Shown in pieces: positions 44,478 to 47,913 of a stretch of DNA of 64,000 nt; position 1 is the first letter of the stretch, and each line of letters begins with the position of its first letter. Position numbers and translations under genes: made by a program. Source of the stretch: Aequorivita antarctica (GTDB taxonomy: Bacteria > Bacteroidota > Bacteroidia > Flavobacteriales > Flavobacteriaceae). The notes beneath the pieces are model-generated. The model was not told the DNA's origin. It ran no database searches and saw nothing but the letters and a program-made list of their open reading frames with translations. Location of the stretch: positions 1-64,000 of the forward strand of contig NZ_VORT01000001.1 of NCBI RefSeq assembly GCF_007997155.1, read 5' to 3'.

Positions 44478-45086
44478 ATGTCTTTCGAATTACCAAAATT
44501 ACCGTATGCTTTTGATGCATTAGAGCCAAACATCGATGCCCAAACGATGGAAATACACCACGACAAACACCACCAAGGTTATACCAACAATTTAAACGAT
44601 GCCATAAAAGGCACGGATATGGAAGGAAAAACCATTGAAAATATTTTAATTAATCTTGATATGGAAAATAAAGCCGTCCGTAACAATGGTGGTGGATTTT
44701 ACAACCACAGCCTTTTTTGGAAGGTAATGTCGCCAAACGGTGGCGGAAAACCTTCAGGTGACTTGGCCAAAGCCATTGACACTGCCTATGGAAGTTTTGA
44801 TGCTTTTAAAGAGAAATTTTCTAATGCTGCAAAAACACAATTTGGTTCTGGATGGGCTTGGCTTTGCGTTCACAAAGGTGGAAAAGTAGATGTTTGCGCT
44901 ACACCAAACCAAGACAATCCTTTGATGCCAAACGTTGGCTGCGGTGGAACTCCAATTTTAGGATTGGATGTTTGGGAGCATGCCTATTATTTAAAATATC
45001 AAAACAAGCGTCCGGACTACGTTGGTGCTTTTTGGAATATAATCAACTGGGATGAAGTCTCTGTTAACTACTCCAAGAATAAGTAG
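44478..45086 (+). CDS. sodA: Superoxide dismutase [Fe/Mn]
   Basis: 202 residues from the ATG at 44478 ([17 protein letters not shown]). Dismutates superoxide in the cytosol. Metal ligands are H27 ([12 protein letters not shown]), a histidine in [11 protein letters not shown], and the aspartate and histidine of [16 protein letters not shown]. The active-site surround GSGWAWL is present. The residue pattern ([16 protein letters not shown], and NQDNPLMPN, where glutamine sits near the metal) does not settle Fe against Mn; symbol sodB would also be acceptable. The promoter box and terminator make it monocistronic. Confidence 0.92.
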
Positions 45087-45148: not shown

Positions 45149-45170
45149 GGAAATATTTCAGAAAGAAAGG

Positions 45171-45430
45171 GCTCGTATAAGAATTGGAAAACGAAATTCT
45201 AACTCTGGTTGCTCGTCACCCCGAAGATTTACGGCATAAAAAAAGGCAAACGAGCGTCGGGAAAAAGAAGCGGCTCGCACAAAATTCGGAAAACGAAATT
45301 CAAACTCTGGTTGCTCGCCACCCCGAAGATTTACGGCATAAAAAAAGGCAAACTCACGTTTGCCTTTTTTTGCCCCAAATCTACCATGAACTTAACCTAC
45401 TTATGCTAATGGTATATCCAAATATAGGGC
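45171..45430. ncRNA. Tandem-repeat locus 1, candidate structured RNA
   Basis: Two tandem units of about 102 bases (45171-45272 and 45273-45386). Each starts with GGCTCG, then GGAAAACGAAATTC, AACTCTGGTTGCTCG, CACCCCGAAGATTTACGG and CATAAAAAAAGGCAAAC. The second unit ends in a perfect terminator hairpin GGCAAAC-tcac-GTTTGCC with A and T runs. The conserved tail GCCCCAAATCTACCAT...ATGGTA (45373-45416) forms a small dyad. The loci resemble each other more in layout than in sequence. RNA function is inference only. Confidence 0.45.
45348..45372. terminator. Bidirectional terminator hairpin of locus 1
   Basis: GGCAAAC (45348-45354) and GTTTGCC (45359-45365) pair perfectly, preceded by seven A and followed by seven T residues. 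Confidence 0.75.
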
Positions 45431-45657
45431 AATAAAACATTCAAAATTATGGTTTTAGATGAATTGCCTGTTTTTTCGTTGAAAAGCCTATTTTGTGATT
45501 TTTAAGTCAAAAATTCAACGTTTAAAATTAAATTTTAACACTATTTATAAGAAAACAAAATTGATCTTAACCATTAAAAACTAGTATTAGAAGATATAAT
45601 TTTAAAACCTACCGCAATTGCTTTATCTCAAAATAAAGATTAGATACTTCACAAAGT

Positions 45658-45920
45658 GGTTCGTAAGAAACTGAAAAGATAACTGAGACTCCAAGTGCTC
45701 GCCACCCCATATTTGGGGTATGAAAAAAAGCAGACCATAAGGTCAAAAAGAAGGGGGAAACGGCTCGCAAAAAAAATGAAAAAATTGCCGAGACTCCAAA
45801 TGCTCGCCACCCCAATATTTGGGGTATGAAAAAAGGCAGACCATAAGGTCTACCTTTTTTGCCCCAAATCTTACCATAGACCTAACCTACTTACGCCTTA
45901 TGGTAAGCTCAAATATAATT
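45658..45920. ncRNA. Tandem-repeat locus 2, candidate structured RNA
   Basis: Two tandem units of about 104 bases (45658-45761 and 45762-45870). Landmarks are GGTTCG/GGCTCG at the start, GAGACTCCAA(G/A)TGCTCGCCACCCC, an inner CCCC-(A)ATATTT-GGGG hairpin, ATGAAAAAA and GGCAGACCATAAGGTC. The second unit ends in a terminator with A and T runs, followed by GCCCCAAATCTTACCAT...ATGGTAAG. The tail is nearly the same as in locus 1 (45373-45430). Since purF ends at 46015 on the minus strand, this locus may also be part of its 3' untranslated region. Confidence 0.45.
45829..45860. terminator. Bidirectional terminator hairpin of locus 2
   Basis: GGCAGACC (45835-45842) and GGTCTACC (45847-45854) pair with one mismatch between an A-run and a T-run. 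Confidence 0.65.
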
Positions 45921-46014
45921 TAAGTTTAGGCACTAAAGCAGTGTTAATCAACAATTTCGATTAAGTGGATTGGGTTTCCGATAAACGGTAAGGGCTGTGT
46001 TAAAATTTAAAGAA

Positions 46015-47913
46015 TTAATAAGCGCGTTCTGGATTTCCTTCGTAAAAGTTGATGTAGGCTCGGTTCACGACCCTATTTCCACCTGCCGTAGGATAGTTTC
46101 CAGTGAAATACCAATCGCCAAGATTTTTGGGACACGCCTTGTGAAGATCATCAACAGATTGAAAGATAAGTTTCACTTTGGCTTCTATACCTTCACCGCT
46201 AATTATCTCCGCAATTTTATCTGAAATCTCTTCATCTGTAAAAGGTGCGTAAAGTTTTTTCACGTGATTAATTACTGAAACATCCTCCATTGCAACTTGT
46301 TCTTTGCATTTGTGGTAGATTTCTTCAACTATTGAGTAAGTTCCGCGGTCTTTATGAAGTTCCAAAGCCGCCTGAAAAGCAACTAAATGCTCAAGTCTGG
46401 CCATGTCTATTCCATAACAATCCGGGTAACGGATTTGCGGAGCAGATGAAACCACAACTATCTGTTTAGGGTGAAGTCTATCCAGCATTTTCAGAATACT
46501 TTTCTTTAATGTGGTTCCACGAACAATACTATCATCAATGATTACCAAATTGTCCTCAGGTCTTACAACACCATAAGTTACATCATAAACGTGTGCAACT
46601 AAATCATCACGGCTGCTATCATCTGTAATGAAAGTCCGAAGTTTTACATCTTTTATTGCAATCTTCTCCGTACGAATTTTATGGGCTTGTATTTGCTGAA
46701 GTCTCTCTGGAGTTAATCTTTCCTTTTCATTTAGGATTGCTTCGTTTTTCTGTTTGTTCAGTTCGTCCTGTGCAGCTTCCAACATTCCATAAAACGAAGT
46801 TTCGGCAGTATTCGGTATAAAGGAAAATACTGAGTTTTCAGTATCAAAATTTATTGCTTTCAAAATTTTCGGCATTATCAGCCTGCCAAGCATTTTACGC
46901 TCCTGATAGATTTCGGCATCACTTCCTCGTGAAAAATAGATGCGTTCAAAGGAACAGGATCTGCGTTCCAAAGGTGCAAGTATTTCGGTAAGTTTCATAC
47001 TTCCGTCTTTCTTGATAATAAGGGCGTGTCCAGGATCTAATTCTTTCACTTCCTCAAAAGGAACGTTGAAAACAGTTTGAATTGCTGGTCTTTCCGAAGC
47101 AACCACAATTACCTCATCATCTTGGTAATAATATGCCGGACGTATTCCTGCGGGATCACGAAGCACAAAAGAATCTCCGTGGCCCAAAAGACCTGCCATG
47201 GCATAGCCACCATCCCAATCAGCTGCAGATTTTCGAAGAATTTTCGCAACATTAAGGTGTTCGGCAATATAGGGCGAAGCTTCTTGCTTGTTAAACCCTT
47301 TTGCTTTTGCTTTTTTGTATAGTTTGCGAACAGCATCGTCCAAAAAGTGACCTATTTTTTCCATCACCGTAACGGTATCGGCCTTTTCTTTTGGATGCAT
47401 TCCAAGCTTTATAAGGTTGTCGAAAAGCTCGTTGGTGTTGGTCATATTAAAGTTTCCAGCAATAATCAGGTTGCGATGCATCCAATTGTTCTGACGAAGA
47501 AAAGGATGAACATTTTCAACACTATTTATTCCGAAAGTTCCATAGCGTACATGGCCGAGGAGCAATTCACCTATATATGGAATATTCTTTTTTTGAGCAG
47601 CAACATCGTCTTTGTATTCTGGATGGTTTGTGAATTCAAGATTTATGCGCTCGTTTATCTGTGCAAAAATATCTTGAATAGGCTGTGCTGCGTTGGAGCG
47701 AACACGACTAATATACCTTTCGCCTGGAGATACATCCAATTTAATACTGGCAAAGCCCGCACCGTCCTGTCCACGGTTATGTTGCTTTTCCATCATTAAA
47801 TACATTTTGTTTACTCCGTAAAAAGCGGTTCCGTATTTTTCCTTGTAATACTCCAAGGGCTTCAACAGTCTTACCAGTGCAATTCCACATTCGTGTTTTA
47901 ACGCGTCGCTCAT
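46015..47913 (-). CDS. purF: Amidophosphoribosyltransferase, long form
   Basis: 632 residues, longer than the usual 460-510. The class II glutamine amidotransferase domain starts with MSDALKHECGIALVRL; the catalytic cysteine would be C9 after removal of a short propeptide. Further motifs: MEKQHNRGQDGAGFA, LLLGHVRYGTFG, AGNFNMTNTNELF, DWDGGYAMAGLLGHGDSFVLRDPAGIRPAYYY. The phosphoribosyltransferase domain has NLVIIDDSIVRGTTLKKSIL and VVVSSAPQIRYPDCYGIDM. It makes phosphoribosylamine, the first step of purine synthesis. The extra length lies in an insertion before the PRPP loop and in the C-terminal 100 residues (DLHKACPKNLGDWYF). Confidence 0.85.
   Translation of the reverse strand: MSDALKHECGIALVRLLKPLEYYKEKYGTAFYGVNKMYLMMEKQHNRGQDGAGFASIKLDVSPGERYISRVRSNAAQPIQDIFAQINERINLEFTNHPEYKDDVAAQKKNIPYIGELLLGHVRYGTFGINSVENVHPFLRQNNWMHRNLIIAGNFNMTNTNELFDNLIKLGMHPKEKADTVTVMEKIGHFLDDAVRKLYKKAKAKGFNKQEASPYIAEHLNVAKILRKSAADWDGGYAMAGLLGHGDSFVLRDPAGIRPAYYYQDDEVIVVASERPAIQTVFNVPFEEVKELDPGHALIIKKDGSMKLTEILAPLERRSCSFERIYFSRGSDAEIYQERKMLGRLIMPKILKAINFDTENSVFSFIPNTAETSFYGMLEAAQDELNKQKNEAILNEKERLTPERLQQIQAHKIRTEKIAIKDVKLRTFITDDSSRDDLVAHVYDVTYGVVRPEDNLVIIDDSIVRGTTLKKSILKMLDRLHPKQIVVVSSAPQIRYPDCYGIDMARLEHLVAFQAALELHKDRGTYSIVEEIYHKCKEQVAMEDVSVINHVKKLYAPFTDEEISDKIAEIISGEGIEAKVKLIFQSVDDLHKACPKNLGDWYFTGNYPTAGGNRVVNRAYINFYEGNPERAY

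Follow-up and report, generated by a model that had tools for sequence, protein, structure and literature searches.

A predicted multi-copy small RNA between SOD and purF in Flavobacteriaceae, with adjoining hairpin arrays around Aequorivita and Ulvibacter

Repeat layout, predicted small RNA genes and their spread

What is encoded by the two tandem-repeat loci that lie between the genes of a superoxide dismutase (SOD) and a purF-like amidophosphoribosyltransferase in Aequorivita antarctica? The window is the whole stretch of 64,000 nucleotides of contig NZ_VORT01000001.1 that was analysed, and all coordinates refer to it. A sequence-only reading of the window had described two repeat units with a common box at each locus, followed by a terminator and an almost identical tail, and all of these are present (Table 1). 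The locus 2 units contain CCCC-ATATTT-GGGG and the locus 1 units CCCCGAAGATTTACGG, as that reading had it. The B-type box TGCTCGTCACCCC is exact at 45312, 45696 and 45801 and has one mismatch at 45210. Missing from the earlier description was the second box of each unit, the A box, which resembles GGCTCGCA and is found at 45170, 45272, 45658 (degenerate) and 45762. The repeat layout is not due to chance, because the region is matched at E<=1e-39 in 22 of 28 Aequorivita genomes, our own included; two further genomes match only at E about 0.007 and four have no match.

Table 1. Features of the region between SOD and purF, in window coordinates.
Feature	Position	Strand	Remarks
Fe/Mn superoxide dismutase (SOD) gene	44478..45086	+	PF02777, PF00081; conserved left neighbour
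Array 1, two units beyond sRNA 1 terminator	45160..45339	-	Anti-linker, B box, variable arm, A box
Locus 1 repeat units	45162-45251 / 45264-45353		90 nt, 90% identical, spacing 102
Terminator palindrome, locus 1	45340..45371	both	With A-tract and T-tract; 14/14 paired; compensatory changes
sRNA gene 1 (predicted)	45340..45414	-	75 nt; hairpin UACCAU..AUGGUA, linker GAUUUGGGGC, terminator; fold z -4.68
Tails of both loci	45358-45406 / 45848-45896		76% identical ungapped over 49 nt, spacing 490
Promoter box TATATTTG, sRNA 1	45419..45426	-	-12 to -5 from a start at the first hairpin base, 45414
Region upstream of sRNA 1	45427..45545	-	CAACGAAAA and TCTAAAA, motifs preceding many family copies
Array 2, two units beyond sRNA 2 terminator	45650..45828	-	First A box (45658) degenerate
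Locus 2 repeat units	45665-45730 / 45770-45835		66 nt, 76% identical, spacing 105
Terminator palindrome, locus 2	45829..45860		Palindrome in sequence; compensatory changes
sRNA gene 2 (predicted)	45829..45905	-	77 nt; paralogue of gene 1; fold z -4.74 for 45833-45905
Promoter box TATATTTG, sRNA 2	45910..45917	-	-12 to -5 rule; start at 45905
Region upstream of sRNA 2, to purF stop	45918..46014	-	Conserved in genus
purF-like amidophosphoribosyltransferase gene	46015..47913	-	TIGR01134; conserved right neighbour

The purF-like protein is a divergent form, scoring 124.7 bits with TIGR01134 against a cut-off of 350 bits. A protein-coding reading of the repeats was rejected, the 83-aa plus-strand frame at 45184-45435 having no Pfam match. 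Rejected as well was an insertion element, which would have counted against the sequence-only proposal, or a phage. There is no sign of such an element: the own genome has this one locus and no dispersed copies, and a phage and plasmid search with the window's region gave no match. The 10-letter core of the box has five exact sites in the own genome, three of them in this region.

We consider it probable, from sequence comparison, that the two loci are independently transcribed, paralogous minus-strand sRNA genes together with a hairpin array, and that the sRNAs probably act by base pairing. The tail of each locus is predicted to be a separate minus-strand sRNA gene that shares the terminator. 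Each gene would start from a sigma-A-type promoter, encode a 5' hairpin whose 20-nt loop is conserved and then a single-stranded linker that is invariant, and end in an intrinsic terminator. The paired structured small RNAs proposed earlier are thus retained as two paired sRNAs, but the predicted RNA is the tail of about 75 nt on the minus strand with its terminator and not the two-unit stretch of about 200 nt.

Both predicted sRNAs fold better than all of 200 shuffles. In an alignment of 41 of the 44 genus tails (G003b and both G014 tails were left out), conservation begins at TATATTTG, spans TACCAT..ATGGTA and the linker, and fades just past the minus-strand T-run. Six of the 24 predicted pairs are changed on both sides with pairing kept, all of them within the terminator; the 5' stem is invariant in the genus tails and therefore carries no covariation support.

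A covariance model of the sRNA finds 330 of 397 sampled family genomes at E<=0.001, about 20 of them weak as counted by eye, and 207 of 237 genera. When the model was run on a sample of the class (n=295), 25 genomes were found at E<=1e-4. Six of them, the own genome and five further members of its family, have their best places at 62-111 bits and are the only ones above 40 bits, while 19 genomes of other families reach 32-38 bits despite passing E<=1e-4, and these matches outside the family are taken as background. Other matches in the own genome, at about 30 bits or less, were treated in the same way. An exact 24-mer of the sRNA core occurs in at least 118 stretches of named genomes and has no match among viral contigs.

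Among the 80 of these stretches that were listed, SOD and purF are both found in 55, one of them in 22, often because the stretch is cut, and neither in three (L094, L103 and L151). The number of tandem copies per locus ranges from one to six among the matches listed. Among these same matches, Aquimarina has one copy in each of four stretches, Winogradskyella two copies in three of four (the fourth is cut), Maribacter four or five copies in seven of eight (the eighth is cut) and Zobellia six and five copies in two, the third stretch being cut. Both genes would accordingly be classed as members of one family-wide, SOD-purF-linked, multi-copy and syntenic sRNA, which is apparently undescribed. 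Gene structure, conservation and synteny are established by these comparisons; we infer transcription.

To our knowledge, characterised regulatory RNAs of Flavobacteriaceae are few. The window has nothing at the gathering threshold in Rfam 15 except a tRNA elsewhere, and 15 further loci (110204 bases) have no match at threshold. A syntenic sRNA in about four fifths of the sampled genomes that is absent from Rfam 15 gives the field a defined target. In the literature searched, neither these arrays nor an sRNA located between SOD and purF is described; the sRNA itself may be among the 85 new RNAs listed for Flavobacterium psychrophilum in PMC9723704.

Hairpin arrays beyond the terminators

In the Aequorivita/Ulvibacter group, an array of hairpin units usually follows each gene, on the gene's own strand. 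Recurrence of the layout elsewhere had been raised by the sequence-only reading, and it is found outside this locus. Immediately beyond the terminator, 59 of the 83 sRNA copies in the array group have a B box with at least 9 of 11 letters, compared with none of the 177 copies outside the group. Units for this count were taken from the window, from 23 stretches of Aequorivita and from 22 further loci (L057, L058, L257 and L258 are in neither set). On a tree of 104 rows, the array label on 27 rows needs six changes, compared with a mean of 24 for shuffled labels. The array labels were set by hand, and loci with fewer than 200 filled columns as well as L051, L055, L073 and L075 were left out of the tree. 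L057 (G384) was first labelled as having no array although it has a single unit whose A box is less exact; counted as a carrier, it brings the tree to seven changes for 28 of the 104 rows.

Almost every array carrier is placed near Aequorivita and Ulvibacter, where some losses are seen; L251 falls outside, in a part of the tree left unresolved. Arrays are absent from most named loci among the matches listed. Of the 397 family genomes, 77 contain an exact B box, but stray matches are common: among 30 loci from the exact B-box search, the box is accompanied by an A box and the sRNA core in eight and by neither in 22. Longer array periods of about 147-236 nt were seen in L052, L053, L163 and L065, which suggests that larger multi-part units were duplicated there. 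In G269 (L077) a 181-codon open frame separates SOD from the first unit, so that gene insertion seems to be tolerated in this gap.

On the minus strand the boxes read GUGGCGAGC and GCGAGCCGUU, and GUGGC-GA-GC pairs with GC-GA-GCCGU around a tandem G.A. The tandem G.A in GGCGAGCC is well known as a stable RNA motif. A search of the literature for the GGCGAGCC motif by name gave no paper with that word. Over 70 unit types, none of which departs from the two boxes by more than four mismatches, the boxes pair canonically in 432 of 490 cells on the minus strand. Read on the plus strand, the units lose the wobble pairs and reach 317 cells, and this reading was rejected. Shuffles average 420.4 (sd 2.6) on the minus and 305.6 on the plus strand, and none of 2000 reaches either observed value; these shuffles ignore relatedness, and the consensus-based unit search inflates the paired share. 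The fifth stem pair is C-G in 53 unit types, U-A in 7, U-G in 4, C.A in 4 and another in 2. We regard this covariation as support for box pairing rather than proof of it, with the better fit on the minus strand.

For the folds, the pairing and the anti-linker sites, units were drawn from the window, from 25 stretches of Aequorivita and from 19 further loci. On the minus strand, the predicted fold has four or more box pairs for 72 of 85 units and fewer for the other 13; on the plus strand, 61 of 85 have four or more. The stretch between the boxes is 8-37 nt long and free in sequence, and it is itself a hairpin in some species. Taken as a class, these variable arms do not fold better than shuffles (mean z of -0.35 for the minus strand and of -0.33 for the plus strand), although by eye some are clear hairpins. 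A piece of the locus 2 unit truncated ahead of its A box likewise has no folding advantage over shuffles (z -0.21).

The units also carry a complement of the sRNA linker. CCAAAU sites lie just after the terminator and in interior units, with 42 of 61 last units and 39 of 64 interior units having one, compared with 0 and 2 in reversed controls. In the predicted fold of the locus 1 read-through RNA (z -6.55), the linker is locked against this anti-linker. Read-through past the terminator would, in the mechanism we propose, give an RNA with several box-paired hairpins and several anti-linker copies, which could hold the sRNA linker in cis or in trans. We infer a role of the array, as well as the type of target discussed below, and offer its purpose as a hypothesis: the array may be a self-made sponge, formed by read-through of the sRNA's own terminator, in which the number of units sets how strongly the sRNA is buffered. 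As an explanation of the arrays this is tentative and rather unlikely. If it were true, strains would tune regulation by gaining and losing units, and regulator and titrator would share one transcription unit with the dose encoded by a tandem repeat. Whatever their purpose, the arrays are an unusual structured RNA repeat of variable copy number that adjoins a regulatory RNA. Related strains, whose loci have from none to about five units, offer a natural series for the role of the repeat.

That variation in Aequorivita also bears on a second explanation, together with several further observations. G007 has identical tandem units, the close relatives G001 and G026 have their units in opposite order, and the contigs of G003, G019, G023 and G025 end inside arrays. 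Judged from sequence, the units are dispensable, because four genomes of the genus (G002, G006, G014 and G020) keep both tails and have no recognisable boxes. All of this, and the restriction of the arrays largely to one group of the tree, would fit an array that is a by-product, in which hairpin DNA beside the terminator palindrome changes its length by replication slippage and has no function in the cell; the boxes would be kept since only hairpin-forming units multiply. A by-product is possible, if on balance unlikely, for it has to account for boxes and a tandem G.A that are conserved between genera with the remainder of the unit free to vary, for U.G wobble pairs, which suit RNA better than DNA, and for GATTTGG, which is retained in the interior units of L252 and L061 although these are without an A-tract.

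Repeated binding sites in one RNA that titrate a partner are known from sRNA sponges and from CsrB-type decoys; the repeats described here differ in that they would sit behind the sRNA's own terminator. By analogy with CsrB, the array RNA could be a multivalent decoy whose tandem G.A hairpins titrate an RNA-binding protein instead of the sRNA. The same internal loop unit after unit, with a variable arm, would suit such a decoy, which we nevertheless regard as improbable.

Predicted promoters, upstream motifs and other possible origins

The sigma-A box TAnnTTTG sits at -12 to -5 according to the accessible text of PMC9723704. Applied to the promoter boxes of Table 1, this rule places the predicted starts exactly on the first hairpin base, at 45414 and at 45905. 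An exact TANNTTTG lies 3-5 nt ahead of the hairpin in 149 of 256 distinct copies and is missing at that place in the other 107; 18 copies have one anywhere from -130 to -30. The linker directly follows the hairpin in 223 of the 256 copies, and 33 are without the exact linker there. A changed linker (GATTTGGGACG) was seen in the copy farthest from purF in the tandem clusters L092, L097 and L148.

Two motifs recur farther upstream. TC[TC]AAAA is found at -75 to -35 in 111 of 256 copies and in 9 of a control stretch, and A[AT]CGA in 106 of 256 copies and in 14 of a reversed control. The two, at 45453-45487 in the window, are spaced roughly two helical turns apart and look like a direct-repeat activator site. 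The activator would perhaps be of the LytTR kind.

An origin of the sRNAs as processed 3' UTR pieces of the purF mRNA, without a promoter of their own, follows the earlier suggestion that the region is the 3' end of that mRNA. What holds of this suggestion is the position: purF is on the same strand, with the sRNAs downstream of it, in all 68 listed named stretches in which purF was found. Each of the two sRNAs in the window has its own promoter box, however, and the constant position of the box ahead of many tandem copies, the terminators after them and the conserved upstream motifs all speak for separate genes, so that we consider processing from purF quite improbable. A CRISPR-like or guide-RNA array, with the variable arms as acquired spacers, would match the constant boxes around variable stretches of 8-37 nt and a conserved 'leader' side, but is disfavoured and barely credible given that the window's region lacks phage and plasmid matches, that the arms of related species look alignable by eye (e.g. 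G018 and G021) and that some are short self-hairpins.

Comparison with known systems and candidate targets

The sRNA would act by base pairing of its loop, its linker or both with the starts of mRNAs. OmrA/OmrB- and Qrr-type sibling sRNAs are, like the two predicted sRNAs here, paralogues that probably have common targets. We know of no hairpin array downstream of these sRNAs, which are both named in the accessible part of PMC11697453. The same source, as far as its text is accessible, describes FopS as a repressor of SusC-type transporters that pairs near the start codon and has a single-stranded 5' stretch (PMC11697453).

FopS/GibS (RF04319) of Bacteroides is, like the sRNA described here, a multi-copy set of paralogues of about 65-75 nt in Bacteroidota with a terminator at the end, and an alignment of the two has UUCAUGGU..AGAUUU in common. 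The FopS model scores the sRNA at 25.7-26.2 bits, below its gathering threshold of 56 bits, and over 60 family genomes no place passes the threshold, the best ones (31.3 bits) not being these sRNAs. Membership of FopS was rejected on this score and because the sRNA has a predicted 5' hairpin, with tandem copies at one locus, instead of the single-stranded 5' seed given for FopS in the accessible text. Binding by the RRM protein RbpB is a further trait of FopS. The likeness to FopS is at best functional. Rfp18 of Flavobacterium psychrophilum is also a conserved sRNA of the same family of bacteria and pairs through a third stem-loop, as described in the accessible portion of PMC9723704; compared by description, this third stem-loop sets it apart from the sRNA here, which has two hairpins.

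The loop of the sRNA is complementary to AACUUAA and then ACUUAUG, in that order. Long complementarity to the loop in the own genome was rejected, as sites are fewer than in the reversed control: near-complements show no excess, with 9 against 55, and shorter ones number 47 against 111. SusC-type genes of Zobellia barbeyronii and Maribacter spongiicola were compared with other open frames, the set comprising 30 genes with loci among 106 matches in these two genomes and the start being the most upstream in-frame ATG. In the 45 nt before the start, AACTTAA is found in 11 of 30 SusC-type genes and in 7 of 86 other frames, which are not confirmed as genes, and ACTTATG lies at the start in 4 of 30 and 0 of 86. 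The mean energy between loop and SusC leader is below that of 297 of 300 shuffled loops, whereas in the control frames 100 of 300 shuffled loops reach an energy as low (Mann-Whitney p 0.023); the shuffled loops keep single letters only.

The mRNA starts of SusC-type transporters may on this basis be named as the best candidate target, weakly so. Words that do not match the loop are just as enriched in the SusC leaders (AACTCAA in 11 of 30 against 0 of 86, AACTAAC in 7 of 30 against 0 of 86), so the likeness of these leaders has another cause. Flavobacteriaceae include major degraders of algal polysaccharide, and the sRNA is possibly tied to glycan transporters. The SusC leaders of Zobellia and Maribacter (L273-L302) are G-poor and share AACTTAA, AACTCAA and AACTAAC before the start, words that are possibly a translation signal of their own.
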